Source: an uncultured Alphaproteobacteria bacterium (GTDB lineage: Bacteria > Pseudomonadota > Alphaproteobacteria > Caulobacterales > Caulobacteraceae). Taken from it: 64,000 bases of DNA. Under the pieces are notes generated by a model. The model saw nothing but the letters and a program-made list of their open reading frames with translations. It was not told the origin of the DNA and ran no database searches. Shown here piece by piece: positions 8,644-63,210 of this stretch. The DNA is taken from assembly GCA_903909375.1 (NCBI GenBank), contig CAIVVM010000024.1, positions 1 through 64,000 of the forward strand, read 5' to 3'. Made by a program: the position numbers and the translations under genes. Positions within the stretch are counted from its first letter, which is position 1. Each line of letters opens with the position of its first letter.

Positions 8644-9849
8644 TTACCCCCTCTGCGTCACCTCGGGCAGTCCGAGAATCCGCTTCGAGATGATGTTCAA
8701 CTGCACTTCCCAGGAGCCGCCCGCAATGGTTCCGCTCTTGGTGCGCAGCATGGCCTTGATCGTGCCGGTCTCCTCGTCGGTGAATCCGGCGCCGTCCCAG
8801 CCCAGGCCCTGATGGCCCAGCACCTCGACCGACAGCTCGGCCTTGTCCTGGCGCACCTTGGAACCCACGTTCTTCAGCACCGATGAGGCCGCATTGGGGC
8901 CGGAGTTCCCGCGATTCTCGTCAGCCGCCCGTCGCCCGGTGAGCTGGAAGGCGCGTTCCTCCATCAGGTGTTCGGTAATCCGCCGGCGCAGGTCCACGTC
9001 GGCCAACCTGCCGCTGTCGTCGACGCCCACATAGGCCTTGGCCAGATCCTTCAGCGGGGGTCCGGGCACGGCGCCGGGACCGGGACCGCCACCCGCGCCG
9101 GAAATGCCCTCCCGCTCGTGCTGCAACAGTCGCTTGGCGATGGTCCAGCCACCGTTCAGCGGCCCCATCAGGTTGGCCTTGGGCACCTTCACATCGGTGA
9201 AGAAGGTCTCGCAGAAGGGCGCTGTGTCGTTGATCAGCCGGATCGGCCGCGGCTCTACGCCGCCGCCGGCCATATCGATAAGCAGGAAGCTGATCCCCTC
9301 ATGCTTCTTGGACGTATCGGTACGTACCAGACAGAAGCACCAGTCAGCCTTGTCGGCGCCGCTCGTCCAGATCTTGCTGCCGTCCACCACATAGTGGTCG
9401 CCCATGTCGACGGCCTTGGTCTGCAAGGACGCCAGGTCTGATCCGGCGCCGGGTTCGGAGAACCCCTGGCACCACATCTTCTCACCCTTCACGATGGCCG
9501 GGATATGCTCCTGCTTCTGGGCTTCGGTGCCGTACTCCAGCAGGGTCGGCCCGAACATGATGACGCCCATGCCGCCGATCGGATTATAGGCGCCGATGGC
9601 GGCCATCTCCTGGGCCAGCACCTTGGCTTCCTCCCGGCTGAGGCCGCCGCCGCCATAGACCCGGGGCCAGGTGGGCGTGCCCCAGCCCTTGTCGCCCATG
9701 GCCTTGCGCCAGGCATCCCGCTCGGGGCTCAGCGCTTCCAGCCGTTCGCCACCGCCCGTGGCGCCCTTCAGGGACGCCGGAAAGTTGGCCATCAGCCATT
9801 CGCGAACGTCCGCTCTGAAGGCGTCGAGGGTATTACCGAAATCCGCCAT
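8644..9849 (-). CDS. Acyl-CoA dehydrogenase family protein, long subunit (401 aa)
   Basis: Starts MADFGNTLDAFRADVREW at ATG 9849. It keeps WCQGFSEPGAGSDLA, WTSGADKADWCFCLVRTD and a C-terminal AGGSWEVQLNIISKRILGLP. The aromatic Trp in the last motif replaces the small residue of its neighbours and may mark a different acyl pocket. A glycine/proline-rich insertion (GAGGGPGPGAVPGP) lies before the C-terminal domain. It lies between two repeat-filled gaps in the array and is probably co-transcribed with the other dehydrogenases. Confidence 0.86.
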   Translation of the reverse strand: MADFGNTLDAFRADVREWLMANFPASLKGATGGGERLEALSPERDAWRKAMGDKGWGTPTWPRVYGGGGLSREEAKVLAQEMAAIGAYNPIGGMGVIMFGPTLLEYGTEAQKQEHIPAIVKGEKMWCQGFSEPGAGSDLASLQTKAVDMGDHYVVDGSKIWTSGADKADWCFCLVRTDTSKKHEGISFLLIDMAGGGVEPRPIRLINDTAPFCETFFTDVKVPKANLMGPLNGGWTIAKRLLQHEREGISGAGGGPGPGAVPGPPLKDLAKAYVGVDDSGRLADVDLRRRITEHLMEERAFQLTGRRAADENRGNSGPNAASSVLKNVGSKVRQDKAELSVEVLGHQGLGWDGAGFTDEETGTIKAMLRTKSGTIAGGSWEVQLNIISKRILGLPEVTQRG

Positions 9850-48820: not shown

Positions 48821-49873
48821 ATGGCGCGCGACGCAGACCCTTTCACCTCGATCATGATCGGCGAGCCCTTTGATGTGGCCGAGGTGTCGCTGGGGGACGT
48901 GCTCTCCGGGCTGGGATCGTACACCGCCGTCGTCAACGATCCGCCGTGGACTCTGATCGCCCCGGCGTTTCCGAAACCGGCGCGGGTGGTTGTCGCCGCC
49001 GACATGGAGCTTTCGGAACTTGAGGCCCTGGCGGCGGTGGGCGACGCCGGCCGCACGGTCGTCGGCATCGGCGGCGGCACGGCCATGGACACCGCCAAGT
49101 TTCTCGCCTGGAAACACGAGAAGCCCCTTATCCAGGTTCCCACCATCACCTCCGTCGACGCCGCCTTCACGGATGCCATCGGCGTGCGCCAGGACCAGCG
49201 GGTGCGCTACATCGCCAAGGTCACGCCGCGTCTGGTGGTTCTCGACCTGCCCCTGATCAGGTCGGCGCCGCCGCACCTGAACCGCGCAGGCGTGGGGGAT
49301 GTGCTGTCGTGCCACACCGGTCTCTTTGACTGGAAACTGGCCAGCGACGCCGGTCACGGCCATCCCTGGCGGGCCGACCTCGCGGCCCTTGGCGCTGAAC
49401 TTCTGGACGGTCTGGACGCCGCCGCCGGCGACATCCGCGATGTCTCCGCCGATGGAATCCGGTTCCTGGCCCATGCCTACCGCCGTATTGGCGCCGCCTC
49501 TGCTCTGGCTGGTCACAGTCGATTTGAGGAAGGCTCCGAGCACTTCTGGGCCTACGCTTACGAGGCCCTGACCGGCGTGTCCCAGATCCATGGCGAACTC
49601 ATCGCCTGCGGCGTGGTGGCGCTCAGTGTGGTGCAGGGCAACGACCCTGGCCGCGCCGCCGATATTGTGACCCGCAGCGGCGTCCGCTCCCATCCGGCGG
49701 ACCTCGGGATCACCGAGCAACAGTTCCGCGCCGCCCTGACCGGACTGGCGGCCTATGCCCGCGCGGAGTCCCTCGACATATCCGTGGCGGATCTGACGCC
49801 GGTGACACCGGATCAGGTTGACGCCGCATGGCAGGCGGTCTGCGCGTTGCCGCGTCGACCAGTGGCCGCATGA
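48821..49873 (+). CDS. Iron-containing alcohol dehydrogenase, glycerol-1-phosphate dehydrogenase-like
   Basis: A 350-residue member of the dehydroquinate synthase/glycerol-1-phosphate dehydrogenase superfamily. NAD-binding loop GIGGGTAMDTAKF, PTITSVDAAF, and metal ligands in GVGDVLSCHTG and SQIHGELIACG. AGGAG precedes ATG 48821. Members oxidise secondary alcohols of polyols, including aminocyclitol-type rings. The DegT aminotransferase follows 15 bases later, a pairing used to exchange a hydroxyl for an amine or the reverse. Confidence 0.82.
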   Translation: MARDADPFTSIMIGEPFDVAEVSLGDVLSGLGSYTAVVNDPPWTLIAPAFPKPARVVVAADMELSELEALAAVGDAGRTVVGIGGGTAMDTAKFLAWKHEKPLIQVPTITSVDAAFTDAIGVRQDQRVRYIAKVTPRLVVLDLPLIRSAPPHLNRAGVGDVLSCHTGLFDWKLASDAGHGHPWRADLAALGAELLDGLDAAAGDIRDVSADGIRFLAHAYRRIGAASALAGHSRFEEGSEHFWAYAYEALTGVSQIHGELIACGVVALSVVQGNDPGRAADIVTRSGVRSHPADLGITEQQFRAALTGLAAYARAESLDISVADLTPVTPDQVDAAWQAVCALPRRPVAA

Positions 49874-49888
49874 GCCGGAGCCATACCC

Positions 49889-51130
49889 ATGACCTCTGAT
49901 AACCGCGCCGCGATTCTTGGCGGACAACCGCTCTTTGCCGCGCCTTTCCCCCGTTGGCCGGTCTGGGACGACCGTGAGCGCAAGGCCCTGTCCGCCACCC
50001 TGGACAGCGGCGGCTGGTGGGATGGCGACGGGGAAAGGGCTGCGCGCTTCGCCAGCGATTTTGCCGCCTACCAAGGCGCAAGACATGGCCTCGCCATGAC
50101 CAACGGCACCCACACCCTGGAGACAGCTCTGGCGGCTTGCGACGTCGGCGAGGGCGACGAGGTCATCGTGCCCGGGATGACCTTCGTGGCGTCGGCTGGT
50201 GCGGTGCTGGCGGTCAACGCAACGCCGGTCCTGGTGGACGTGGACCCGGAGACCCTCTGCCTCGACGCCGCCGCCGCCGAGGCCGCCATAACGGAGCGCA
50301 CCCGCGCCATCATGGTGGTGCATGTGGCTGGCGCGGCGGCCGATCTCGACGCGCTCACGGCGCTCTGCGCGCGCCGGGGCCTGCATCTGATCGAGGATTG
50401 CGCCCACGCCCACGGCACCTTCTGGCGGGGCCGGGGCGTCGGCTCCTGGGGCAGTTTCGGCAGCTTCTCCATGCAGTCGTCAAAGCTGATGACCGCCGGC
50501 GAGGGCGGGGTGCTGACCTGCAACGATGACCGGTTGCGCGACCTGGCCCGCAGCTACGCCAACTGCGGCCGGGTGGAGGGCGAATGGTTCTACCACCACG
50601 TCCGCTACGGGGCGAACCTGCGCATGACCGAGTGGCAGGGCGCGGTGCTGGCCGCCCAGCTTGAACGGTTCCCCGAGCAGAACCGCACCCGTAACCGGAA
50701 CGCCCTGGCGCTGGGCGAGGCGCTCTCGCGGATCGAGGGCATCCGCCCCCAGTTTCGCGACCCCCGGATGAACAGCCAGGGCAACTATTGCTACGTCTTC
50801 CATTATGATCGGTCCGCCTTCGCCGGCATGGACCTGCGCCTGTTCGAACGGGCGCTGGGTGCGGAGGGTGTGCCCATGGGGGTTTCCTACCCCAGCCTGA
50901 ATGAGCTGGAGGTGTTCCGCCGCGGCGACTTCGGGCCTCGCCTGCGCGCATCGGCGCCGAAGATCGACTACGCCAGCCTGCGGTTGCCCGTCGCCGAACA
51001 TGCGGCGCGCTCGACGGTCTGGCTGCAACACCGCCTGCTGCTGGGCGAGCCGGATCAGGTGCTGGACGTGGCGCGGGCAGTGAAGCGCGTCCAGGACCAG
51101 GCGGCGGCGATCATGGTGGCGGGAAGCTAG
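49889..51130 (+). CDS. DegT/DnrJ/EryC1/StrS family PLP aminotransferase
   Basis: A 413-residue sugar/cyclitol aminotransferase. It has TNGTHTLETAL for phosphate binding, the PLP-contact aspartate in IEDCAHAHGT and the Schiff-base lysine in FSMQSSKLMTAGEGG. This family transaminates keto-sugars and keto-cyclitols, using glutamate or glutamine. In the unit with an alcohol dehydrogenase and a divergent deacetylase, it probably serves an amino-polyol route; whether made or degraded is unclear. Its stop overlaps the TetR gene's stop tail to tail. Confidence 0.86.
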   Translation: MTSDNRAAILGGQPLFAAPFPRWPVWDDRERKALSATLDSGGWWDGDGERAARFASDFAAYQGARHGLAMTNGTHTLETALAACDVGEGDEVIVPGMTFVASAGAVLAVNATPVLVDVDPETLCLDAAAAEAAITERTRAIMVVHVAGAAADLDALTALCARRGLHLIEDCAHAHGTFWRGRGVGSWGSFGSFSMQSSKLMTAGEGGVLTCNDDRLRDLARSYANCGRVEGEWFYHHVRYGANLRMTEWQGAVLAAQLERFPEQNRTRNRNALALGEALSRIEGIRPQFRDPRMNSQGNYCYVFHYDRSAFAGMDLRLFERALGAEGVPMGVSYPSLNELEVFRRGDFGPRLRASAPKIDYASLRLPVAEHAARSTVWLQHRLLLGEPDQVLDVARAVKRVQDQAAAIMVAGS

Positions 51131-51777
51131 GCGGAGTCGGCCACCCTGAAGGCGCCCTGCCGCACAATCTCATCTGCGGCCCGGGCGGCCAGGCTCTCGG
51201 CTTCGGGGGGCGGCACGCCGAGGCCCCTCAGTTCCAGTGCGCCGATCTGCTGGGCGAGTGTGACCGCATGGGCGAGGTTCGGGTCCCCGGCTACCTGGAC
51301 AAACGCCGCCTGGACGACGCCGATTACGAATATGAGCCCGGACTCCATGCTGGCGAGCGCGAAGCGACCGCTGGCCAGACCTGCTGTGACGTCGCTGACG
51401 ACGCCTCGGTTCAAGGGCGCCTCAGGCGCGTTGCCCGCATGAAACCGGATGATCACCCCGGCGCCCTGAGGGTCGTCTACGGCGTAGCGCAAATAGACAC
51501 ACAGAGCCCTGACCATCCGGCGTGCGCTGTCCTCGACGCCCATGTTGGCCGTATCGACGGCGTGTTCCACGTCGGCGCGGATCAAGGCGGTCACGGCCCG
51601 CGCCAAAGCCTCCCGATCCGTGAAGTGATTGTAGAAGCTGCCCTTGGCCACCCCGGCTTCCCGGACAATGTCGTCGATGGCCACGGCGTCGATAGGGTGT
51701 TCGCAGAACAACTTGCGGCCCGCAGCGACCAGGGCCGCGCGCGTCTTCTCCGTACGGCCTGGGCGATCAGCGGCCAT
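51127..51777 (-). CDS. TetR family transcriptional regulator
   Basis: A 216-residue repressor starting MAADRPGRTEKTRAALVAAG with the helix-turn-helix IDDIVREAGVAKGSFYNHFTDREALARA. The ligand domain is in the usual 120-200 range. It lies immediately downstream of, and overlaps by about 11 bases, the flavin hydroxylase gene of the ring-cleavage operon, so it most likely regulates that operon through the two TGAC-N6-GTCA palindromes at 55097 and 55152. An alternative ATG at 51807 is possible. Confidence 0.85.
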   Translation of the reverse strand: MAADRPGRTEKTRAALVAAGRKLFCEHPIDAVAIDDIVREAGVAKGSFYNHFTDREALARAVTALIRADVEHAVDTANMGVEDSARRMVRALCVYLRYAVDDPQGAGVIIRFHAGNAPEAPLNRGVVSDVTAGLASGRFALASMESGLIFVIGVVQAAFVQVAGDPNLAHAVTLAQQIGALELRGLGVPPPEAESLAARAADEIVRQGAFRVADSA

Positions 51778-53269
51778 GGGGCGCTGGCGTCGTTTCGTCG
51801 GTGACATGGCGGGCGTAGGCGGCGGCCAGCACGCTGGGGTCTCCGGTTCCAAAGACGTATCGGTCGGGTCGCACCAGAACAGCATCGGCGCCCTCCCGGT
51901 CGAGCCAGTCTGTCAGCGCCTTCCTGAAGGGTGCGAGAGACGCATCCTCAAGGGTCATCACCGTCGCGATGTCGCTGGCCCCGGGCCATGTGGTCCGCGA
52001 AAGCAGCCAGGCTCCGTCGTGCAGGACATCATCCAGGCGCTGGCCTTCGGTCGTGGGCTGCGGGAAGAGCGCACCCGCGCCGGTGGTCCCGTCCAGAACA
52101 CAGCCTGACGTCAGCGAAGCTGCTCTGGCAGGCGGAAGCGGCCGTGCGCCGCCGGCCTCCTGCGCCAGCATACCCCGATCGCGTTCGGCGGCCGCGACCG
52201 GATCCAGCGTGCAGACGACACGGCCCATGCCGATCGCCTGTTCGATGATCGCGCGCACATGCGGCGCGCGCTCGGTCTGATAGGTATCGAGCAGCGCTTC
52301 CGGAGCACCCGCCAGCACCGCCTGCAGTTTCCACGCGAGGTTGGCGGCGTCCCGAAGACCCGAGCACATGCCCTGCCCGGCAAAGGGCGGCATCTGATGG
52401 GCGCTGTCGCCGGCCAGCAGCACGCGACCGTTCCGCCAACGGTTCGCCATCAGGCCATGGAATCTGTAGACCGCCTTCCGTTCCAGTTCGACGGGCCCGC
52501 AGTCCCACGGGGTGATGAGCGACTGGATGAAGTCGTCGTCCAGCACCTGGTCCGGGGTCTCGCCCGGCAACAGCATGAACTCCCAACGATGTCGGCCCGG
52601 ACCCATCAGCACGCAGGTCGTGGGGCGCTTCGGATCGCAGATCTGCAGGTTGATCTCAGGCGTCCGGGCGCCCGGCAGGACGCGCGCGTCGATCACCAGC
52701 CAGGGCTCGTCGAACTGGAAATCGATCATGCCGCCGCCGACTTCGCTACGAACCGGGCTGGACGCACCGTCACAGCCCACGAGGTAGCGCGCGCGACGCG
52801 TCGTCCGTCCTGACGGGGTATCGATCGTCGCCGTCACGCCTGAATTGTCCTGTTCCTGGGACAGGTAGCGCCATCCGGTGTGCATGGTCGCTGCGGGCAG
52901 CGTTGCGAGCAGGTCGCGCAGGGCGTGCTCGAGCGCCGGCTGATGAAACATGTAGCCCGCGGCCCAGCCGGAAGGGCTGTGTGCAGGGATCTCAAAGCGC
53001 AACAACGCCTGTCCATCCGCCGTGCGGAATTCATAAGCCGGGGCAAGCTGGGTATGGCGCTCGACGGTCTCGGCGATCCCCAACTGCTGGAAGATCCGCA
53101 TGATCTCGTGGTCGAAGTGGGCGGCCCGCGGCAGAGGGTAGACCTCGGCGTCCTTGTCCAGGACGATGGTCCTGATCCCGGCGCGGGCCAGCAGAGCTGC
53201 AAGCGTGGCGCCCACAGGGCCCAGGCCGACGATCAGCACATCACAGTCGAAGCCTGCCGCGGTCGACAT
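51767..53269 (-). CDS. FAD-dependent aromatic hydroxylase (MhpA-like)
   Basis: A 500-residue class A flavin monooxygenase with GLGPVGATLAAL (FAD), YLVGCDGASSPVR (DG motif) and AGDSAHQMPPFAGQGMCSG (GD motif). Size and sequence fit the 3-(3-hydroxyphenyl)propionate hydroxylase/PHBH-like MhpA group, which adds a hydroxyl to a phenol ring to give a catechol. It is one base after the FAH-family gene (53271) in the same operon as an extradiol dioxygenase, so it likely makes the dioxygenase's substrate. True substrate unknown. Confidence 0.87.
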   Translation of the reverse strand: MSTAAGFDCDVLIVGLGPVGATLAALLARAGIRTIVLDKDAEVYPLPRAAHFDHEIMRIFQQLGIAETVERHTQLAPAYEFRTADGQALLRFEIPAHSPSGWAAGYMFHQPALEHALRDLLATLPAATMHTGWRYLSQEQDNSGVTATIDTPSGRTTRRARYLVGCDGASSPVRSEVGGGMIDFQFDEPWLVIDARVLPGARTPEINLQICDPKRPTTCVLMGPGRHRWEFMLLPGETPDQVLDDDFIQSLITPWDCGPVELERKAVYRFHGLMANRWRNGRVLLAGDSAHQMPPFAGQGMCSGLRDAANLAWKLQAVLAGAPEALLDTYQTERAPHVRAIIEQAIGMGRVVCTLDPVAAAERDRGMLAQEAGGARPLPPARAASLTSGCVLDGTTGAGALFPQPTTEGQRLDDVLHDGAWLLSRTTWPGASDIATVMTLEDASLAPFRKALTDWLDREGADAVLVRPDRYVFGTGDPSVLAAAYARHVTDETTPAPHGR

Positions 53270-53270
53270 G

Positions 53271-54128
53271 TCAGGCCTCGTTGGCGCAGGGGTTGTCTAT
53301 GGCGCCCAGGGTCTCGATCTCGATCCGGACGCGATCGCCGGCCTTGAGGAACTGCATGGGCTTCATCGCCGCGCCGATGCCTCCCGGCGTACCTGTGAAG
53401 ATCAGGTCTCCGGCCTCCAGGGTCATGGCCTGTGACAGGTGCTCGAGCTGATCCCAGACGTTGAACACCAGATGCCGTGTGTTGGAGTCCTGCCGGGTCT
53501 CGCCGTTCACCGTGCAGCGGATCGCCAGCGCATGCGGATCGGGCACCTCATCGGCGGTGGTGATCCAGGGGCCGAACGGCGCATGGGTGTCGAAGGACTT
53601 GCCAACCACCCATTGCGGCGTGCGGTGCTGCCAGGCCCGCTCGGTAGCGTCATTGCCCACGCAGTAGCCAAACACGGCAGAGGGCGCGTCGGCGCTGGAA
53701 ATGTGTCGCCCGCCAGTCCCGATCACGGCGACCATTTCGGCCTCGTAGTCCAGCGCCTGCGAGACCCTGGGCACATCGATCGGATCGAAGGGACCGTTCG
53801 CCGACGTCGGCGCCTTGCTGAACCAGACTTGGTGTTCCGGCGTGCCCATCCCGCTCTCGGCGATGTGATCGGCGTAGTTGAGGCCGATGGCCATGATCTT
53901 GCCGGGACGCCGGATGGGCGCCAGTAGCCGGACCTGATCGAGGTCCAGGGCGATTGCAGCCGAGTCGGCCGCGGCCCGGACGGCGGCTTCGACCGCGGGC
54001 CAGGACTGGATCAGCCCGATCATGTCCGCCGGCAGTTGCGGGAGGATGCGGTTCAACGGGACGATCTTCTGTCCAACGACGGCGCCCAGCTCCGAGGCCG
54101 AGTCGGTGGTGAAGGTTGCAAGTTTCAT
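53271..54128 (-). CDS. Fumarylacetoacetate hydrolase family protein
   Basis: A 285-residue FAH-family protein starting MKLATFTTDSASELGAVVGQ. It has KIMAIGLNYADHIAESG, metal-binding acids in ALDYEAEMVAVIG and GDLIFTGTPGGIG. Such enzymes hydrolyse or isomerise the ring-fission products of catechols. It lies between the hydroxylase and the dioxygenase genes, so it should act on the dioxygenase product. Confidence 0.87.
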   Translation of the reverse strand: MKLATFTTDSASELGAVVGQKIVPLNRILPQLPADMIGLIQSWPAVEAAVRAAADSAAIALDLDQVRLLAPIRRPGKIMAIGLNYADHIAESGMGTPEHQVWFSKAPTSANGPFDPIDVPRVSQALDYEAEMVAVIGTGGRHISSADAPSAVFGYCVGNDATERAWQHRTPQWVVGKSFDTHAPFGPWITTADEVPDPHALAIRCTVNGETRQDSNTRHLVFNVWDQLEHLSQAMTLEAGDLIFTGTPGGIGAAMKPMQFLKAGDRVRIEIETLGAIDNPCANEA

Positions 54129-54150
54129 GTGGTCCTTACCTTGTCTGACG

Positions 54151-55077
54151 TCAGGCCATGGTCGGCGGCGCCGGCTGGCCCCACTGTACGGCCAGCAGGT
54201 CCTGCAGCGACGCGACGTTTGACCCGTCGCTGGCCGTCAGCAGGTCGCCGTCGGTCCAGTGCTCCAGGGTGTGGCCCCAGGGGTCGCGCCAGTAGTCGAA
54301 CACCTGGCTGCCCAGGATGTGACGCCCCACGCCCCACTCGGCCGTGCGCCCCGCGTCCTTCAGTCGGGTATGGCCGGCCATCAGGTCGTCAAGGTCGGCC
54401 ACCTCGAAGGCGGCGTGATTGAAGCCGGGCCCCTTGGGGCTCTGCGCCAGGAACAGGGTGTGGTGGTCGGTCGGCGTATCGCCCCGATCGCACCGCAGGA
54501 AGGCGCCCAGCGAAAACTCCGGCGAGATCGCCACCTCGTCGGAGGTGATGAAACCGAAGCGCGCCTTGTACCAGGCCTCGGAGGCCCGGAAGTCTGACAC
54601 GTTCAGCACGCAGTGTCCCAGCCGCACCACATGGGCAGCGCCGACGCCGGTCCGCTTCACGGCCCGCAACCTTGCATGCGCCCGGGCGTCATTCCACGGC
54701 GACCGTTCGGGTAGCGGCAGCGGATCTACGAGAGCCTGGCCTGCAACCACCTCGATGCGGTGACCGTCGGGATCGCTGAGCGCGATCATCTGCCCGCCGC
54801 CCGGCGCGTCCAGCGGCTGGATCTCCACGCCCTCGGCCTTGGCCAGAGTCTCCAGGTCGACAGCTGACTCGGCGCGGAGGCCAAGCGCGGCGAAGCCTGC
54901 GTCGCCCTGTTCGGTGGCGTGCAGGAATGGCGCGGTTCCGGCGCCTCGGGCAAACAGCCGCCCTGAGGCGGCGTCGGCCACCTTGAGGCCGAAGTCCTCC
55001 AGGAACCCGGACATCTCGTCCAGGTCCGGCGCGCGGAACCGGACATAGGCGATGTCTTCGATCTTGATCAGGCTCAT
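54151..55077 (-). CDS. Two-domain extradiol dioxygenase (catechol 2,3-dioxygenase-like, VOC)
   Basis: A 308-residue type I extradiol dioxygenase starting MSLIKIEDIAYVRFRAPD. Iron ligands appear as His in RLGHCVLNVSDF, His in GPGFNHAAFEV and Glu in GHTLEHW, all in the C-terminal domain. It should open a catechol ring next to the hydroxyls. First gene of a three-gene operon (dioxygenase, FAH, hydroxylase) followed by its TetR gene. ATG 55077 is better placed than ATG 55095, which lies at the edge of the first palindromic operator. Confidence 0.87.
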   Translation of the reverse strand: MSLIKIEDIAYVRFRAPDLDEMSGFLEDFGLKVADAASGRLFARGAGTAPFLHATEQGDAGFAALGLRAESAVDLETLAKAEGVEIQPLDAPGGGQMIALSDPDGHRIEVVAGQALVDPLPLPERSPWNDARAHARLRAVKRTGVGAAHVVRLGHCVLNVSDFRASEAWYKARFGFITSDEVAISPEFSLGAFLRCDRGDTPTDHHTLFLAQSPKGPGFNHAAFEVADLDDLMAGHTRLKDAGRTAEWGVGRHILGSQVFDYWRDPWGHTLEHWTDGDLLTASDGSNVASLQDLLAVQWGQPAPPTMA

Positions 55078-55096
55078 GAGGTCATCCGGGTCCATA

Positions 55097-55114
55097 AATG
55101 ACTATTTGGTCATT
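55097..55114. promoter_or_regulatory. Candidate TetR operator 1 (AATGAC-N6-GTCATT)
   Basis: A perfect 6-base inverted repeat, 20 bases upstream of the chosen dioxygenase start. It shares the TGAC-N6-GTCA core with the site at 55152; centres are 54 bases apart, so two dimers would sit on about the same helix face and could block transcription on both sides. Confidence 0.6.
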
Positions 55115-55151
55115 ATACCGATGAAAAGTTTCGTCAGCAACACTACAATAG

Positions 55152-55167
55152 GTGACGAAATGGTCAC
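55152..55167. promoter_or_regulatory. Candidate TetR operator 2 (GTGAC-N6-GTCAC)
   Basis: A perfect 5-base inverted repeat with the same 6-base spacing as operator 1, in the lower-GC promoter region between the dioxygenase operon and yghU. The remaining bases 55168-55377 show no further gene. Confidence 0.6.
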
Positions 55168-55377
55168 AATCTAGGTAAAACTCCGCGCCGGGAAGCAAGC
55201 CAAAGCTCGATCATGGTGTTCAGCGTTGTCGACCAGGAACCAAGCTCGAAATGGATTCTGCCCTGGTAGCCATGTGTCGGCCGCGCTTCGCCCTCGACTC
55301 GCCACCACTGTTCATGCCACCCAGAAAAGTCTGAGCGCAGGTCCAACGCGCGCCCGCTGGAAACGTCTGGAGCCCCC

Positions 55378-56256
55378 ATGAGCGACGCCACCTATACCCC
55401 GCCCGCCGTCTGGACCTGGAACAAGGAGAGCGGGGGCCGGTTCGCCGCCATCAACCGGCCGATCGCCGGTCCGACCAAGGAGCATGTGCTGCCGGTGGGC
55501 AAGCATCCGATGCAGCTCTATTCACTGGGCACGCCCAACGGCGTGAAGGTGACGGTTATGCTGGAGGAGCTGCTGGCGCTGGGGCATTCGGGCGCCGAGT
55601 ACGACGCCTGGCTGATCAATATCGGCGCGGGGGATCAGTTCGGCTCGGGTTTCGTCGACATCAATCCCAATTCCAAGATCCCGGCCTTGCTGGACCGCAG
55701 TGGCCCTACGCCGATCCGGGTGTTTGAATCCGGCGCGATCCTGATCCACCTGGCCGAGAAGTTCGGTGAGTTCCTGCCCACCGAGCCGGCGGCGCGGGCT
55801 GAGTGCCTGTCCTGGCTGATGTGGCAGATGGGCTCGGCGCCCTTCCTCGGCGGCGGGTTCGGCCACTTCTACGCCTATGCGCCGATCAAGATCGAATACG
55901 CCATCGACCGCTACGCCATGGAGGTGAAGCGCCAGTTGGACGTGCTGGATCGCCGTCTGGCCGAGAGCGAGTATCTGGGCGGCGCCGATTACACCATCGC
56001 CGACATGGCCGTCTGGCCCTGGTACGGGGCCCTGGTGAAGGGCGTAGTCTATGAGGCCGGCGAGTTCCTGCAGGTGGCCGAGTACAAGAACGTCATCCGC
56101 TGGACCGACCAGATCGCAGAGCGTCCTGCCGTCAAGCGCGGCCGAATGGTCAACCGCGCCCAGGGTGATCCGTCCAGCCAGCTGCGCGAACGCCACGATG
56201 CCTCGGACTTCGACCTGCGCACCCAGGACAAGCTGGACGCAGCCGCCGCCGGCTGA
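55378..56256 (+). CDS. yghU: Glutathione-dependent disulfide-bond oxidoreductase YghU
   Basis: A 292-residue GST-superfamily protein very close to E. coli YghU: GKHPMQLYSLGTPNGVKVTV, EYDAWLINIG, PNSKIPALLD, FLGGGFGHFYAYAPIKIEYA and a tail with LRERHDASDFDLRTQDK are nearly superimposable. YghU-type (Nu-class) enzymes bind two glutathiones and reduce disulfides or organic peroxides. Start ATG 55378 (MSDATYTPPAVWTWNKESG) matches the family start. Divergent from the dioxygenase operon. Confidence 0.92.
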   Translation: MSDATYTPPAVWTWNKESGGRFAAINRPIAGPTKEHVLPVGKHPMQLYSLGTPNGVKVTVMLEELLALGHSGAEYDAWLINIGAGDQFGSGFVDINPNSKIPALLDRSGPTPIRVFESGAILIHLAEKFGEFLPTEPAARAECLSWLMWQMGSAPFLGGGFGHFYAYAPIKIEYAIDRYAMEVKRQLDVLDRRLAESEYLGGADYTIADMAVWPWYGALVKGVVYEAGEFLQVAEYKNVIRWTDQIAERPAVKRGRMVNRAQGDPSSQLRERHDASDFDLRTQDKLDAAAAG

Positions 56257-56260
56257 AGTC

Positions 56261-57337
56261 TCACATCAGCTGGATGGCGGTGAGGGCGAAGGTCAGGATC
56301 ACCAGGGTTTCCAGCACGATGATCGCCAGCGAGTTCAGGCCCACCTTGAACATGTCGCCGAGCGAGGTTTTGACGCCCACCGCGGCGATGGCGGCCACCA
56401 GCAGCCAGCGGGAAACCTCGCCGGCGGCTGTCGGCAGTTCTTTCGGCACGAGGCCGGTGGAGTTGATCGCCACCAGGGCGATAAAGGCCAGCAGGAAGCC
56501 GGGGACCAGCGGCGCGGAGCGCCAGCTGGTTTTGGTCTCGGATTTCGCCCGGAACATCAGGGCTACGATGACGATCACCGGCAGAAGCAGGGCCACGCGG
56601 AACAGCTTGACGATGGTGGCGGTGTCGCCGACCTCCTTGGAGACGCCGTAGCCCGCGCCCACCACCTGGGCCACGTCGTGAATGGTTGCGCCCAGCAGCA
56701 GGCCGGTCTGTTGTTCCGAAAGCCCCAGGGCGGCGGCCAACACCGGATAGGTCACCATGGCCACGGTCGACAGGGCGGTGACGCCGACCACGGTCAGCAG
56801 GGTGTCGCGCTCGCGGGTGGGTGAGGGCGGCAGGACTGACGAGATCGCCAGCGCGGCCGAGGCGCCGCAGATCGCCACTGCGCCGGCGGTCAGGACGCCG
56901 AACTCGGGCCGGAGCTTGAGCACCCGTGAAAGCAGCCAGCCCGCCGTGATGGTCAGGGCGACGCCCAGCGTCACCACCAGCACCACATTGCCGCCCAGCG
57001 ACAGCACCTGATCGGCGGTGATCCTCGCGCCGAGCAAGGCCACGCCAAGCCGCAGCAATTGGCGGGTGGCGAAATCCAGGCCGGGCCGGTAGCTGGCGTC
57101 GGCACGAAGGAAGTTCATCGCCATGCCCAGCAACAGGGCGAACAGCAGGATCGGGACCGTGTAGTGATCGGCCAGCCAAGCGGCGGCCATCGAGACCAGC
57201 ACAACGATCGACAGGCCAGGCGCCAGCTTGCGCGCCGTCGCCAGAAGACTTGCTTTGGCGACCGGCGCCTCGACAGGATCCGGAACGCCCTCCAGCGAGT
57301 CCAGCGACGAGGCCGTGTAGTGCTCTTCCCTCAGCAT
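56261..57337 (-). CDS. yeiH: YeiH family putative sulfate/sulfite exporter (UPF0324)
   Basis: A 358-residue membrane protein with about ten helices and the UPF0324 marks VPILLFALLLGMAMNF, LGVALLGARIT, AGAVAICGASAALAI and GATIHDVAQVVGAGYG. YeiH proteins are thought to export a sulfur anion, possibly sulfate or sulfite. It follows the selenoprotein gene by 101 bases on the same strand, with a palindrome between. No adjacent LysR (YeiE) gene is seen. It could be the last gene of the selenocysteine island or an independent unit. Confidence 0.85.
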   Translation of the reverse strand: MLREEHYTASSLDSLEGVPDPVEAPVAKASLLATARKLAPGLSIVVLVSMAAAWLADHYTVPILLFALLLGMAMNFLRADASYRPGLDFATRQLLRLGVALLGARITADQVLSLGGNVVLVVTLGVALTITAGWLLSRVLKLRPEFGVLTAGAVAICGASAALAISSVLPPSPTRERDTLLTVVGVTALSTVAMVTYPVLAAALGLSEQQTGLLLGATIHDVAQVVGAGYGVSKEVGDTATIVKLFRVALLLPVIVIVALMFRAKSETKTSWRSAPLVPGFLLAFIALVAINSTGLVPKELPTAAGEVSRWLLVAAIAAVGVKTSLGDMFKVGLNSLAIIVLETLVILTFALTAIQLM

Positions 57338-57382
57338 ATGGCCAGATCAGGCCTTTCAATCTTCAGGGCAAGAGTGCTCGGT

Positions 57383-57403
57383 CAAGTGACCGCCGTTCAC
57401 TTG
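57383..57403. promoter_or_regulatory. Inverted repeat CAAGTGA-N7-TCACTTG upstream of yeiH
   Basis: A perfect 7-base inverted repeat, 46-66 bases before the yeiH start and 36 bases after the selenoprotein stop. It has no T-run and is therefore more likely an operator than a terminator. Confidence 0.45.
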
Positions 57404-57438
57404 CAAGTTCCTGTGAATGCAGGCGAGTCCGCTACCGT

Positions 57439-57957
57439 CTAAACCGTCAGCGCTGCAATCACCTGCTCCAGCACCGCGCGGGCCTTGCCGCGCATCTCGT
57501 CGTCGGTGGCGTCCTGGATCGGATGGTCCACCAGCACGTAGCGCGCGCCCTCCATGCCCAGCGCCTTGCGCTGAACCTCGGCGGCCTGGCCAAACTCACT
57601 GGAGGCGATGGTCACCGCCGGAAGTCCCTGGATCTCGAACCACACAGTGTCGTGCAGACTGCACGTCGTGCATGATCCTCAATCGGCCAGGCCTTCCACC
57701 AGAACCGCGCACTCGGCCTTGATTTTCAGGCGCAGGTCCGACGGGCAGGGCTTGGTGAAGGTCGGCTTTGCGTAGCGCTTGATCTCCACTTTCGGATACC
57801 GGGCCGCCATCAGCACTTCCAGCTCGTCCAGCAGGATGTTGCCGCGGGGCTTGGCGATATCCAGCAGCCCGATCACACCGGTGATATCGCCTGTCCGCGC
57901 GGTGATCTGGCGCTCGACGGGGACCCGCTCATCGGTCGGGTCCAGAATGGTCGTCAT
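57439..57957 (-). CDS. UGSC-type selenoprotein (in-frame TGA at 57679-57681 read as selenocysteine)
   Basis: The frame runs from ATG 57957 to TAG 57439 with one in-frame TGA as codon 93. Read through, the codons from the TGA give Sec-Gly-Ser-Cys-Thr-Thr-Cys, and the protein continues smoothly for 79 residues (TVWFEIQGLPAVTIASSEFG). This is the motif for which the UGSC selenoprotein family is named; cysteine forms carry CGSC. GGGAGG lies six bases before ATG 57957; an ATG at 57963 touches it and is too close. A hairpin directly after the TGA fits a bacterial SECIS, and selA, selB and selC are next door. Likely a thiol/selenol redox protein of unknown substrate, co-transcribed with the thioredoxin-like gene 31 bases upstream. 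Confidence 0.92.
57651..57665 (-). ncRNA. Bacterial SECIS hairpin of the UGSC selenoprotein mRNA
   Basis: On the minus strand CGTGCA-GTC-TGCACG forms a perfect 6-base-pair stem with a 3-base loop. The loop begins 19 bases after the UGA, within the 16-37 base window used for bacterial SECIS models, and its first base is G as those models require. An A-A mismatch and a further G-C pair extend the stem. It should bind the winged-helix end of SelB and recode the UGA. Confidence 0.75.
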
Positions 57958-57988
57958 CGACATCCTCCCTGGTTCAGCCCTGAGGCTA

Positions 57989-59575
57989 TCAGTATTCGAT
58001 TTTCCGGGAAACGCTGATCGATCCCATCGGTCCGGTGACCCAGCCGTGGAAGGCGGCCGAGAATTTTCCGGCGTCTGACCCTGCCACCACGATGTGGATG
58101 TAGGCGTCGCTGGCGAACTTGGAGACCGGCGTGTCGAGCTGCGCGTCCGTCATCTTCGCGGCCATGGCCCGGGTAATGCCGGCGCCCGAGATCTCGTTGG
58201 CCACCATCTCGCGCATGGGTCGCGTCGTCACCGCCTGGATGCGTTCTCGCAGACGCGCCTTGGAGTAGGGCCCCTCGCTGGTCAGGGTGGCGACATGTTC
58301 GGGACAGACCACCAGCAGGGCGTCGGTGTGCATCCGCCGGATCTTGGACAGGAACATGCTTTCCAGCCCGAGGCCCAGGGTGCCTCCCATCTGGTCGGGT
58401 CCGCGTGACTCCTGATCCACGATCTGCACCGGCCCGCTGGTCATGGCGAAGGCGGTGACCACCGAGTCCTCCGCCTTGAAGCCGCGCTCCACATGCAGCG
58501 GCTCCCAGGGCGAGCCCTCCTCCCACTCCGCGAAGCACATGGTGAACTTCATCGGGCTGCTGAGGGTGGAGCGGTCCACGCCGCCGGGCTGGGCGCCGCC
58601 CACGTTTCGCACCACCAGCCTGAGCGCGCGGCCGATGGTGGCGTTGGCGCGGTTGCCGGGTCCCAGCGCTCCCAGCCGCATGTTCATGCCGATGCGTTCA
58701 CGGATCGGGCCATTGACCACCAGCACCGGCGAGGCGCCCATGGTGGTGGCGGTGACGCCATGCATGTTGAACTCGTCAGTGCAGACGGCCTCGACGGCGG
58801 CGATCACCACCGGCAGGTACTCGGGTTTGCAGCCCGCCATCACGGCGTTGATGGCGATCTTCTCCACCGTCACCGGCGCCATGTTGGGCGGCACGATGGC
58901 GACAATATCCTGCGGCGCGCGCGGTGTGCCCGCCAGCATGCGGATCACCCGCTCGGCCGTGGGCGGGATCAGCGGCAGGCCGTCGCTGAAGCCCTGGTCG
59001 AACATGAACTCGGCGATGTCGTCGGCGCTGGCGATCTCGATCCGCCGCGCCCGGATCGGGCTGTCGTCGGCCTCGGCCTGAAGCTTGTCGTGGATCTCCG
59101 GGTCCAGGTGTTTGGAGCCGCAGCCGGGCCGCCAGTCCGGCAGGTCCGCCCAGACGATGGCGGCGGGTGCGGCGTCGAGATCGGCGGCGATCTGGCGGTC
59201 CAGGGCCTGCCACTCCTCCCTGACAAAACCTTCCAGCTTGGTCTTCACCACGCCATCGGCGCCGATCCAGTAGACCGCCGGGACGATCTCGAAGTCCCAT
59301 GCAAAGGAGGTCTTGCAAGCGCTGTCGTCCAGGAACGGCAGGGTGAAGCCGTGGCGATCCTGCAGGATATCGTTGCCCTCGGTCGACTGGCCGAGCACCA
59401 GCACGTCGGCGGCCTCACCCCACGCCTGGTGAAACGCCTCCAGCAACGGCGCCGCCAGATTGCAGGTGTGGCAATCCTCCTTGATGAAGGCGATCAGGCT
59501 TGGCCGCGCCGTCGGGAACCGCCGGGTCTCGCCGGCGCGGTCGGTCAGGGCGAAAGGCGGGCAGGGCACGGTCAT
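57989..59575 (-). CDS. Thioredoxin-like domain fused to a large uncharacterised domain, UGSC partner
   Basis: A 528-residue protein. Residues 1-140 look thioredoxin/TlpA-like with KEDCHTCNLAAPLLEAFHQA (redox pair CHTC) and no signal peptide. A short WRPGCGSKHLDPE linker carries a CGS sequence. From about 175 to the end is a long conserved domain (EFMFDQGFSDGLPLIPPTAE, PPNMAPVTVEKIAINAVMAG, GPIRERIGMNMRLGALGPGN) that I do not recognise as a known enzyme. It lies between selC (22 bases) and the selenoprotein gene (31 bases), so it probably works with that protein, perhaps reducing it. The SD before ATG 59575 is weak. Confidence 0.8.
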   Translation of the reverse strand: MTVPCPPFALTDRAGETRRFPTARPSLIAFIKEDCHTCNLAAPLLEAFHQAWGEAADVLVLGQSTEGNDILQDRHGFTLPFLDDSACKTSFAWDFEIVPAVYWIGADGVVKTKLEGFVREEWQALDRQIAADLDAAPAAIVWADLPDWRPGCGSKHLDPEIHDKLQAEADDSPIRARRIEIASADDIAEFMFDQGFSDGLPLIPPTAERVIRMLAGTPRAPQDIVAIVPPNMAPVTVEKIAINAVMAGCKPEYLPVVIAAVEAVCTDEFNMHGVTATTMGASPVLVVNGPIRERIGMNMRLGALGPGNRANATIGRALRLVVRNVGGAQPGGVDRSTLSSPMKFTMCFAEWEEGSPWEPLHVERGFKAEDSVVTAFAMTSGPVQIVDQESRGPDQMGGTLGLGLESMFLSKIRRMHTDALLVVCPEHVATLTSEGPYSKARLRERIQAVTTRPMREMVANEISGAGITRAMAAKMTDAQLDTPVSKFASDAYIHIVVAGSDAGKFSAAFHGWVTGPMGSISVSRKIEY

Positions 59576-59597
59576 CTAACGGATCTCACCACAGGCT

Positions 59598-59692
59598 TGG
59601 CGGAGATGGATGGGAATCGAACCCACCACACGCCTTTTGGACGTGTCACTGGTTTTGAAGACCAGGGAAGCCACCAGACTCCAGTCACCTCC
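59598..59692 (-). tRNA. selC: tRNA-Sec (selC), anticodon TCA
   Basis: A 95-base tRNA gene with encoded CCA (59598-59600) and G discriminator. The anticodon arm CTGGT-CTTCAAA-ACCAG is perfectly paired and displays TCA (59656-59658). The variable arm is long (ACACGTC pairing with GGCGTGT around CAAAA), the T arm has the loop TTCGATT, and the D stem is six pairs with one mismatch. Acceptor stem pairs GGAGGTG with CATCTCC plus one weak eighth pair. These extended features and size match bacterial selC, which is 95 nt in E. coli. It sits between selB and the thioredoxin-like gene. Confidence 0.95.
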
Positions 59693-59756
59693 AGACGAGG
59701 TGACAGTAGGGTTCAATTGCAGAGCGCACACCCCCTTTTTGTTGCCGGGGCTGCTG

Positions 59757-61652
59757 CTAGCGCACAACCCTGCGCACGTCCCCTTCCCGCGTCGTCCATC
59801 CGATCTCGTCCAGATACTCCAGCACCGGCACGATGAACTTGCGGCTGGTGCCCAGCGCCGCGCGGGCCTCGCCGGTCGTGAAGGTCAGGGGCGGCGGGAA
59901 GGCGGAGCCCAGCGTTGCGACGGCGTCGTCCAGGCAGGCGGGATGAAACACCAGGGTCTGGCGCAGCGACACATTGCGCAGGGATACCACCCGGCCGTCC
60001 TCGACCAGCAGCTGGAGCAGGTCGGCCAGGCCCGGATCACCGCCGGTCAGCTTTGCAGGGTCCGGCGGGGTCAAGCCGCCCTCGCGCAGGGTGACCTCCA
60101 GATCGCCCAGTTGGCTCAGGGCCTCGGGCGCGAGGGATGCCAGAGGATCGTGTCCGCTCAGGGCCACCCGTCCTGCATCAAGTCGGATGGCGCCGTCGCC
60201 GGCAAGCGCGCGTTCGACGGCGTTGACGATCTCCCGGGCGGTTTGCCGGGCGAGCGCGCCCCGGACGTCGCCCACCGCTGCCATCCGGCGCGTGGGTGCG
60301 GCCTGATGGGCGGCTACCAGTAGGTCGAGATAGGCGGTGCGTGTAGTCGCCAGGGCGTCGCGCGCGGCGAAGCGGCCGTCGCCCAGGTCCTGAAAATCGA
60401 GAGCCAGCGCCGCATGGGCCGCCGGCGCGTCGCACCGCCCAAGCCGGGCCAGCTCAGCCATCGCGAGTGTGCCGCCATCCCGCGTCGCCAGCTGGCCGGC
60501 TATTTCCTGGATATCGCCGGTCGTTGCGGCCTCCAGCACGGCGCGGCGCAGGCCGGGCCGCCCGCGATAGACCGGCGGATCAGGGTCCAGGACAATGACG
60601 CCGCCGATCGTCGCCGCCGGTGACAGGCGCCGCAGCACGCCGCGCTGGCCGGCATAGGCGATCACGGGCGATACAAATCGAAGCTGGGCGAAGTCTTCTG
60701 CGCCGGGCGCGATGACCCCTGCTCCCATCAGCCGCACCGACGCGACATCCTGTCGTGCGCCCCACATGACCCTGACCTGGTCGAGGTGTTTCAGCGGGCG
60801 GGGCGCGCCTGCGTCCAGCGTCAGTCGCACATCGACCTGGCTGGTGGCGGTGAAATGGCCCGGCGAACACAGCACGTCGCCGGGCCGGACCTCGTCCAGC
60901 GCGACGCCGCGCAGGCCCACCGCGACCCGCCCGCCGGGCGGTGCGGCTTCGACGGTGCGGCCATGAACCTGAACCTGGCGCAGGCTGACGCTGCGGCCGG
61001 ATGGCTCCAGCACCATCCGCAGGTCCGGCGTCAGCGACTGACCCTGCAGCACCCCGGTCACGACCACGCCCGCGCCGGGAACCGTGAAGACGCGGTCGAT
61101 GGGCAGGAAGGCGCCGGGCAGGGCGGTCGGCGGCGGCGCGTTGGCCCGCAGGGCGTCAATCGCTGCGTGGAGCTGGTCCAGGCCCTGCCCCGTCAGGGCG
61201 GAGCAGAAGACCACCGGCGCCCCGTCCAGGAAGGTTCCTGCCAGCGTCGCCTGGATGTCCGCGCGCCGCTCGGCCTGGATCTCCGGTGACGCAAGGTCGG
61301 CCTTGGTCACCGCGACCACGCCGACCCCCAGGCCCAGAAGGGCGGCGATCTGCAGGTGCTCCCGCGTCTGCCGCCCGAACCCCTCGGTCGCGGAGACCAC
61401 CAGCATGACGGCGCGGACGCCGGTCATGCCCACGACCATCGCCCGGATGAAATCCTCATGGCCGGGAGAATCGATGATGTCGATCTCGCCCGAAGGATAG
61501 CCGCGCCAGGCGAATCCCGGCGTGATGGACAGGCCCCGCGCCTGCTCCTCGGGCAGCCGATCGGTCTCGATTCCGGTCATTGCGCGCACCAGCGCGGTCT
61601 TGCCGTGGTTGACGTGGCCGATGACGCCCAGGGTCAGGGGTGCGGTCGGAAT
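59757..61652 (-). CDS. selB: Selenocysteine-specific elongation factor SelB, probable ATT start
   Basis: About 631 residues, near the usual SelB length. G1 motif GHVNHGKT is at residues 12-19, G3 is SPGHEDF and G4 is TKAD, followed by EF-Tu-like domains and C-terminal winged helices (SRKFIVPVLEYLDEIGWTTR) that bind SECIS RNA. It carries Sec-tRNA to the ribosome. The frame has no ATG, GTG or TTG at the position expected from homology; GGGGAGG sits five bases before an ATT at 61652-61650, giving I-P-T-A-P-L-T-L-G-V-I-G as the N-terminus. A far-upstream TTG (position L22 of the open frame) lacks an SD. selC follows on the same strand. Confidence 0.9.
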   Translation of the reverse strand: MPTAPLTLGVIGHVNHGKTALVRAMTGIETDRLPEEQARGLSITPGFAWRGYPSGEIDIIDSPGHEDFIRAMVVGMTGVRAVMLVVSATEGFGRQTREHLQIAALLGLGVGVVAVTKADLASPEIQAERRADIQATLAGTFLDGAPVVFCSALTGQGLDQLHAAIDALRANAPPPTALPGAFLPIDRVFTVPGAGVVVTGVLQGQSLTPDLRMVLEPSGRSVSLRQVQVHGRTVEAAPPGGRVAVGLRGVALDEVRPGDVLCSPGHFTATSQVDVRLTLDAGAPRPLKHLDQVRVMWGARQDVASVRLMGAGVIAPGAEDFAQLRFVSPVIAYAGQRGVLRRLSPAATIGGVIVLDPDPPVYRGRPGLRRAVLEAATTGDIQEIAGQLATRDGGTLAMAELARLGRCDAPAAHAALALDFQDLGDGRFAARDALATTRTAYLDLLVAAHQAAPTRRMAAVGDVRGALARQTAREIVNAVERALAGDGAIRLDAGRVALSGHDPLASLAPEALSQLGDLEVTLREGGLTPPDPAKLTGGDPGLADLLQLLVEDGRVVSLRNVSLRQTLVFHPACLDDAVATLGSAFPPPLTFTTGEARAALGTSRKFIVPVLEYLDEIGWTTREGDVRRVVR

Positions 61653-61794
61653 GTGCGCCTCCCCGGGGCTGGCGACGATCAGGAGGGGCCACAGTAAGGC
61701 TCCGGGTGGCCGGTTCAAACGTCCGAATCGTCGCCGGTCCCTTGCTCGGGCGGCCGCCAGCTCGCTACAACAACATCCCACAGGAGGCAGACCC

Positions 61795-63210
61795 GTCGCC
61801 CGCCAGGCCCCCAGGCCCGTTCATCAGGATCCCCGTCGGCGTCTGCCGGCGGTGGGCGCGATCTGCGCTGATCCGGCGGCCCTGGCGCTGGGTAGGCAGT
61901 TTGGCGACGCCGCGGTCACCCGGACAGTGCGTGCGGTGCTGGCCGATGTTCGCGAACGCCTGCTGAGCGACGCCCCCCTGATCCCGACTGTGGCCTCCCT
62001 GCTGGACGAGGTGGAGCGGCGGCTGGCCGACACCACCCGCGAGACGCTGTTCGGGGTGATCAACGCCACCGGCGTTGTCATCCACACCAACCTCGGCCGC
62101 GCGCCGCTGGCGCCCGAGGCGGTGGCCGCCATGACGCTCGCCGCGGGATACGGCAATCTGGAGCTAGACCTGGAGGGCGGGCGGCGCGCCTCGCGACATG
62201 ATCATCTGGAGGCGCTGATCGCCGGCGCAACCGGGGCTGCGACCGGCCTTGCGGTCAACAATTGCGCCGGCGCCGTGGTGCTGGCGCTCGCGGCGCTGGC
62301 CGCCGGTACACCCGTGATCGTGTCGCGGGGCGAGATGGTCGAGATCGGCGGCGGGTTCCGGGTGCCGGACATCGTGGCCCAGAGCGGCGCACGGCTGGTT
62401 GAGATCGGGACCACCAACCGCACCCATCTGCGCGACTACGAACAGGCGGTGGCCGACCACCCCGAGGCGCGGGTGATCCTGCGCACGCACCCCAGCAACT
62501 ACCGGATCACCGGCTTCACCAGCGCGCCATCGCTGGAGGCGCTGGCCGCCTTCGCCCATGCGCGGGGCCTGTTGCTGGTGGAGGATCTGGGGGGCGGCGC
62601 CCTGATCGACCTGGCGCCTTACGGGATCGAGGGAGAGCCCCGGGTACAGGAGAGTGTGAGGGCCGGCGCGGATCTGGTGATCTTCAGCGGCGACAAGCTG
62701 ATGGGCGGGCCTCAGGCCGGGATCATCGCCGGACGTCGCGAGCTGGTCGAGACCCTGGGCCGCCACCCGCTGGCGCGCGCGCTTCGGCTCGACAAGCTGT
62801 CATTGGCGGCGCTGGCGGCGACGCTGCGCCTCTATCGCGCACCGTCCGATCCCACGCTGCGGGTGCCGGTGTTGCGGATGCTGACCCAGCCGGGCGACGT
62901 GATCCGGGCGCGGGCCGAGGCGCTGGCGGCGATGGTGAGTGACATCGGCGACCTCCAGGGCGAGGTGATCGAAACCCGGAGCTACGCGGGTGGCGGGGCC
63001 ATGCCGATGCATGCCCTGGCGGGCTACGCGCTCAGCGTTCAGACGCCTGCGATGGGCGCGGAGGCTCTGGCCCACCGTCTGCGCACCGGGCCGGCGCCGG
63101 TGGTCGGCCGGATCGAGCGGGACCGGGTGCTGCTGGATCTTCGCACGGTGAACGACGGCGAACTCGATGCGCTGTCGGCAGCTCTTCGCCGCGCCCTGGC
63201 GCCTGGCTGA
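61795..63210 (+). CDS. selA: L-seryl-tRNA(Sec) selenium transferase SelA, non-canonical start
   Basis: About 471 residues (E. coli SelA 463). The N-terminal RRLPAVGAICADP fits the SelA start region; then VINATGVVIHTNLGRAPL and NNCAGAVVLAL follow, and the PLP lysine lies in SGDKLMGGPQAG at about residue 301. SelA turns Ser-tRNA(Sec) into Sec-tRNA(Sec) using selenophosphate. A perfect AGGAGG at 61782-61787 points to GTC at 61795 with seven bases between; no ATG, GTG or TTG is nearby upstream in frame, and the first GTG downstream is already inside the conserved region. It is divergent from selB across about 142 bases. Confidence 0.92.
   Translation, partial: VARQAPRPVHQDPRRRLPAVGAICADPAALALGRQFGDAAVTRTVRAVLADVRERLLSDAPLIPTVASLLDEVERRLADTTRETLFGVINATGVVIHTNLGRAPLAPEAVAAMTLAAGYGNLELDLEGGRRASRHDHLEALIAGATGAATGLAVNNCAGAVVLALAALAAGTPVIVSRGEMVEIGGGFRVPDIVAQSGARLVEIGTTNRTHLRDYEQAVADHPEARVILRTHPSNYRITGFTSAPSLEALAAFAHARGLLLVEDLGGGALIDLAPYGIEGEPRVQESVRAGADLVIFSGDKLMGGPQAGIIAGRRELVETLGRHPLARALRLDKLSLAALAATLRLYRAPSDPTLRVPVLRMLTQPGDVIRARAEALAAMVSDIGDLQGEVIETRSYAGGGAMPMHALAGYALSVQTPAMGAEALAHRLRTGPAPVVGRIERDRVLLDLRTVNDGELDALSAALRRALAPG

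Follow-up and report, generated by a model that had tools for sequence, protein, structure and literature searches.

A selenocysteine cassette with a putative UGSC-TrxX reductase, and a second cassette with a decayed selA, in a probable Phenylobacterium genome

The window analysed here, a 64,000-nucleotide stretch of DNA from an uncultured alphaproteobacterium, carries a compact selenocysteine (Sec) cassette that consists of selA, selB, the tRNA-Sec gene selC, the gene for a selenoprotein of the UGSC family and the gene for a partner protein, here called TrxX (Table 1). We read this cassette as self-contained for Sec decoding and the UGSC-TrxX pair as a thiol/selenol-driven reductase in which TrxX would complete the active site, and give this reading a probability of roughly 0.6. 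UGSC proteins are among the commonest selenoproteins of aquatic bacteria, and a cassette of this kind is already known; the surprise is a second, separate cassette in the same genome, in which selA has decayed. Because its genus includes genomes filed as Phenylobacterium, the window genome is probably Phenylobacterium and not Caulobacter. A first, sequence-only reading of the window had remarked that Caulobacter is not known for Sec use; this holds for the well-studied Caulobacter but not for the genus of the window.

The frame of the UGSC gene, read through its TGA, matched NF041046 with 162.8 bits (cut-off 125) and PF24696 with 156 bits (cut-off 25), i.e. the protein is by two curated models a member of the UGSC family, with Sec in U-G-S-C; the motif D-U/C-G-x-C was invariant in UGSC alignments. 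In a sample of 100 genomes of the same genus, UGSC was detected in 25, of which 23 have exactly one in-frame TGA and two have only sense (Cys) codons. The same in-frame TGA was present in these 23 genomes as well as in 78 loci from several phyla; the recurrence of codon and hairpin in many genomes rules out a sequencing error at the TGA, a possibility that the sequence-only reading had raised. The hairpin, which lies 14-28 nt past the TGA and has 6 bp and GU in its loop, was kept in 64/64 distinct sequences, two of them with one mismatch, and 99.5% of the pairs stand over all 64. One pair falls on two synonymous third positions, and was G-C in 44 sequences, G-U in 17 and A-U in three. Among synonymous recodings of the window UGSC gene, 7% kept all six pairs. 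None of five Cys homologues forms the complete hairpin; each retains between three and five of its six pairs. Moreover, a tRNA-Sec scoring >60 bits was detected in 23/23 genomes with TGA-type UGSC, in 0/2 with Cys-type UGSC, and in four genomes without UGSC; TGA-type UGSC and tRNA-Sec go together in the genus. In total, these observations indicate that Sec is almost certainly decoded at the UGA of UGSC. Three of the four genomes with tRNA-Sec and without UGSC carry an Rfam SECIS_3 element (L227, L229, L230), which we take to be of the formate dehydrogenase type; in the window genome, formate dehydrogenase was rejected as a further Sec user, its domain matches being weak and without stops.

The dedicated Sec factors that the sequence-only reading had placed here, together with the UGSC selenoprotein, were all confirmed by curated models. 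For the tRNA-Sec, ARAGORN gave the anticodon TCA and Rfam RF01852 scored 74.6 bits (gathering score 47); SelB matched TIGR00475 with 246.5 bits (cut-off 242) and has the SelB winged helix and beta-barrel in Pfam; SelA matched TIGR00474 with 516.5 bits (cut-off 268). Transcription on the minus strand runs from selB through tRNA-Sec and TrxX to UGSC, with selA divergent, a layout that had been described correctly. The search for selD, on which the sequence-only reading had made its case depend, gave a match of 412 bits outside the window on another contig of the same assembly (G000:C47:49300-50229); a genome without selD is thereby ruled out, and selA, selB, selC and selD were all found. A selenouridine synthase gene (selU, C47:50335-51246) adjoins selD and is divergent from it (G000:C47:49300-51246). 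As selD and this tRNA 2-selenouridine synthase gene lie side by side, the genome also has the selenouridine trait. In the mechanism that we propose, SelD would make selenophosphate, SelA would turn Ser-tRNA-Sec into Sec-tRNA-Sec, and SelB, bound to the hairpin that directly follows the UGA in the UGSC mRNA, would deliver Sec-tRNA-Sec to this codon.

The likely start codons of selB and selA, ATT and GTC, respectively, are unusual, and, therefore, the starts of these genes differ from simple open reading frame calls. In a comparison of starts, selB had GTG or ATG in relatives, and selA started in relatives at the same place with GTC, GTG, ATG, TTG, ATT or ATC. GTC was found in about nine genomes including that of the window, and ATT and ATC in one each; the spacing from a preceding Shine-Dalgarno-like sequence was constant (unusual sel starts: window 61795 and 61652; L053, L054, L057, L059, L061, L062, L068, L071). 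If these starts are true, the weak ATT and GTC would hold SelA and SelB scarce.

The sequence-only reading had taken a thioredoxin-like gene for the probable partner of the selenoprotein, and the partnership is borne out. UGSC and TrxX were present in the same 25 of the 100 genomes, side by side. A TrxX scan of species genomes gave 80 relatives in Alpha- and Gammaproteobacteria, Chloroflexi, Actinobacteria, Acidobacteria, Myxococcota and others; two of the 80 loci run into a contig end, and each of the 78 uncut loci (78/78) carried a TGA-type UGSC beside or near TrxX. In addition, Cys-UGSC is fused in a single frame with the larger domain of TrxX in two genomes without clear tRNA-Sec (L074:7977-9668 and L076:4914-6650; G099, G083). 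In total, this linkage indicates that TrxX is an obligate partner of UGSC and makes it very likely that the two act as one complex. In comparison with the sister genome (G095), dN/dS, i.e. the ratio of nonsynonymous (dN) to synonymous (dS) divergence, was about 0.04 for UGSC and 0.06 for TrxX; both are under purifying selection.

The description as thioredoxin-like fits the N-terminal quarter of TrxX but not the rest, a domain of ~350 residues (X domain). The thioredoxin (Trx) domain compared well with 3gl3 (Z 17.4, root-mean-square deviation 1.8, 132 residues). The X domain has invariant residues, including D198-G, E238, G248 and G315-R316, and its C249 hardly varies. It matched no model of Pfam or NCBIfam, and the sequence relatives of TrxX in the PDB were thioredoxins only, for the N-terminal domain.

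Table 1. Features of the Sec cassette in the window and of the second cassette; L187 is G000:C29:50000-69000, and positions of the second cassette are those in L187
Feature	Position	Strand	Remarks
UGSC-family selenoprotein gene	57439..57957	-	start probably ATG 57957, further ATG at 57963; motif D-U-G-S-C
In-frame TGA, almost certainly read as Sec	57679..57681	-	codon 95 counted from ATG 57963
Bacterial Sec insertion sequence (SECIS), apical stem-loop	57651..57665	-	CGUGCA-GUC-UGCACG; 6/6 pairs
TrxX, UGSC partner	57989..59575	-	528 residues; TlpA/ResA-like thioredoxin domain + ~350-residue domain
selC, tRNA-Sec	59598..59692	-	anticodon UCA; 95 nt with CCA; ARAGORN + Rfam
selB	59757..61652	-	start most likely ATT at 61652 behind GGGGAGG
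selA, divergent	61795..63210	+	start most likely GTC at 61795 behind AGGAGG
Second cassette	L187 6694-10223		
selB2	L187 7023-8888		
tRNA-Sec2	L187 8877-8967		76.3 bits
PrdB-like selenoprotein gene	L187 9042-10223		TGA at 9507-9509; motif U-P-N-C

The AlphaFold model of UGSC (predicted local distance difference test, pLDDT, 93.4) has five alternating beta-alpha units and places Sec between strand 3 and helix 3; no sequence relatives of UGSC were found in the PDB. The best Foldseek matches of the model were flavodoxin-like proteins that bind flavin mononucleotide, and the top VIA match was chain H of the methyl-coenzyme M reductase activation complex, with a Z of 11.2 over 129 residues that is little above that of unrelated flavodoxin-like folds. 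Thus, UGSC is predicted to be flavodoxin-like and not thioredoxin-like. For the UGSC-containing selenoprotein family, Zhang and Gladyshev (2008, PMC2398784) had guessed a thioredoxin-like fold; the predicted model (pLDDT 93) does not show the beta-alpha-beta-alpha-beta-beta-alpha topology of such a fold. The same work reported a fusion of UGSC with 'Unknown_1' (PMC2398784). The window system differs from that description in its five beta-alpha units and in a partner with an N-terminal thioredoxin domain; 'Unknown_1' may or may not be the X domain.

For the reaction cycle, we propose that the UGSC product, as a flavodoxin-like alpha/beta protein, would hold Sec at the tip of strand 3 in U-G-S-C, that the X domain would supply the rest of the active site within a UGSC-TrxX complex, and that the fused TlpA-like domain would reduce a Sec-Cys selenenylsulfide after each turnover. 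That the fused Trx domain regenerates the Sec-Cys pair of a reductase in this way seems probable to us from the conserved motifs. Several observations weigh against the proposed reductase. UGSC precedes X in Cys-type loci, and five/five Cys-type X proteins seen were without a Trx domain; therefore, the Trx domain is not essential for activity as such, although the contrast to Sec-type loci is suggestive only, because the scan used a Trx-containing profile. In a fold search with whole TrxX, the matches were filled by the Trx domain. To our knowledge, neither a substrate nor a reaction has been established for any protein of the UGSC family. Finally, genes for acyl-CoA dehydrogenases, CoA transferases and short-chain dehydrogenases/reductases recur near UGSC in other phyla, on the other strand or scattered; they are not in one operon and are probably background, and we rejected them as a guide to UGSC function.

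A different role for the pair would be one without Trx recycling, in which Sec is a ligand for a metal(loid) or an electrophile, or forms the site of a thiol peroxidase, and the Trx domain serves for docking or as a chaperone. U-x-x-C motifs are found in peroxiredoxin-like selenoproteins and in metal-related ones as well (PMC13188914), and Cys-type pairs manage without the Trx domain; however, almost every aligned partner of the Sec type retains the CxTC motif of the Trx domain (residues 35-38), and the Sec-Cys pair does not vary. We regard this role as rather doubtful. It is also unlikely that the UGSC system belongs to the glycine/proline reductase (GrdB/PrdB) superfamily, in which case Sec would cleave a carbon-heteroatom bond and the X domain would stand in the place of the pyruvoyl subunit. 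Both families place Sec in strand-U-x-x-C-helix-G-[LI]-x-strand, and a profile comparison aligned both Sec-x-x-Cys motifs with an E of 0.0085, but the hhalign probability was 4.7%, Pfam did not link UGSC with PF07355 and gave a single weak match, to PF09338 (E 0.099), and the X domain matched no glycine-reductase family. The Trx-recycled reductase is the reading that we favour.

A search for PrdB relatives led to a second Sec cassette, on contig C29 of the same assembly, whose completeness is 99.97%. With its own selB, tRNA-Sec and TGA-containing PrdB-like gene, it contradicts the proposal of the sequence-only reading that the Sec genes serve a single selenoprotein. SelB2 has 621 residues, matched TIGR00475 with 259.9 bits and is 38% identical to the window SelB. 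The PrdB-like protein, whose gene has one in-frame TGA, is a distant homologue of PrdB (PrdB/GrdB: PF07355, TIGR04483) with 122 bits against TIGR04483, under the equivalog cut-off of 300; it carries U-P-N-C, and UGSC has a similar U-x-x-C core but no significant homology to this family. The same genome has one more gene that is distantly PrdB-like (G000:C40:22021-22656), and no in-frame stop interrupts it. Genes for putative sulfate exporters of the YeiH type are found near both cassettes (window 56261-57337 and L187:2823-3884) and are 75% identical.

In front of selB2 lies a selA remnant of 110 codons that retains pieces of SelA but scored 29 bits against a cut-off of 268 and has no GDKL motif (the pyridoxal phosphate-lysine motif); in the sequence ATGA, the stop codon of the remnant and the start of selB2 overlap. 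No intact SelA was found elsewhere in the genome. As the window SelA is the sole intact copy, it must serve both tRNAs, if both lines work. This second cassette, including the remnant, recurs in the sister genome with 96% DNA identity over 7.2 kb, and dN/dS between the two was about 0.27 for SelB2 and about 0.04 for the PrdB-like protein; both are under purifying selection. Apart from this sister, which has both tRNA-Sec genes, two such genes were found in no other of the 100 congeners and in no other of 385 members of the class (55 with at least one). Two tRNA-Sec genes are thus rare rather than unheard of, because there are precedents such as Photobacterium profundum 3TCK with two complete operons (Santesmasses 2017, PMC5330540). 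As in that genome, two different tRNA-Sec genes lie in two sel operons; unlike it, each cassette here has its own selenoprotein, the SelBs are as divergent as described above, and one selA is a short in-frame remnant. Tentatively, the two cassettes might form two Sec lines, in which SelB1 and tRNA-Sec1 would read the UGSC hairpin, SelB2 and tRNA-Sec2 would read the PrdB-like hairpin, and SelA and SelD would be shared; the selA remnant would act as a coupling leader through its ATGA, and SelB2 would be kept since SelB1 cannot read the PrdB hairpin. The apical loop of either hairpin contains GU, at a similar distance from the UGA, and sequence alone does not decide whether the SelB-hairpin pairs are orthogonal.

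The sequence-only reading had suggested that the set arrived as a unit. The part of this that stands is the gene order, which is kept in 23 of the 100 congeners and in other Alphaproteobacteria; the sites differ, the base composition is ordinary, and the two halves of the block have separate histories. Between window 49507-59709 and the sister genome, DNA identity was 88%; it was 67% for selB and 75% for selA, and identity to the nearest genome falls sharply 17 bp upstream of tRNA-Sec (window 59709). Protein identity to the sister was 95% for TrxX, 60% for SelB and 74% for SelA. Likewise, dS was 0.93 for selB and 0.87 for selA compared to 0.32-0.61 for seven neighbouring genes including TrxX, and dN was 0.36 and 0.19 compared to 0.02-0.06; UGSC had a dS of 0.23 and a dN of 0.01. 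These divergences indicate separate histories of the selAB half and the selC-TrxX-UGSC half, and the simplest reading is that the divergent selAB pair was replaced in one of the two lineages, with a break near selC. At the break, the sister genome has a 730-bp insert (L072:10129-10858) with an extra gene for a small membrane-type protein, MAPEG-like by eye.

That the island is one foreign block recently acquired for UGSC alone, along the lines that the sequence-only reading had suggested, is very improbable. In its favour, the gene order is conserved, the block occurs in only a quarter of the congeners and its flanks differ between genomes. However, the GC content (UGSC-TrxX 66.8%, selAB 71.8%, window 66.9%) and that of third codon positions are as in the neighbours, and the foreign composition that a comparison proposed by the sequence-only reading might have revealed was not seen; the TrxX, SelB and SelA trees each keep the Phenylobacterium sequences as a clade; the sister genome has the same locus with its flanks; the two halves differ in history; and the genome has a second selenoprotein. 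The flanks of the block are common to the window and the sister genome only. Because few other flanking genes are shared among congeners, the block moved, or was gained and lost, within the genus.

The block was also found where the sequence-only reading had proposed to look, i.e. in other Caulobacterales, and beyond them in Hyphomonadaceae and Rhodobacterales, with the UGSC-TrxX pair within the sel block and the usual order selA, selB, selC, TrxX, UGSC. In several Hyphomonadaceae and Rhodobacterales loci (L088, L089, L090, L092, L094), a gene for ~720 residues lies just downstream of UGSC; by its N-terminal sequence it resembles an Ndh-SelD fusion, which would make the cassette nearly complete. 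For Alphaproteobacteria, sel clusters in which selC is nested within selB have been described, with mention of Caulobacterales (Mukai 2021, PMC8124441). The window cassette comes from the same bacterial class and likewise has selB next to selC on the same strand, but it differs in that the two are not nested, the selB stop (59757) and the tRNA 5' end (59692) being 64 nt apart, and in that it serves UGSC-TrxX and not formate dehydrogenase. The second selB of the genome does run into its selC, by 9 coding nt and the stop.

Because a strictly linked partner was found and both folds are predicted, UGSC-TrxX becomes testable as a two-part enzyme. Moreover, the dual cassette, in which one selA has decayed, offers a natural experiment in the sharing of Sec machinery: SelA can be shared, whereas SelB and its hairpin may have to be kept separate.

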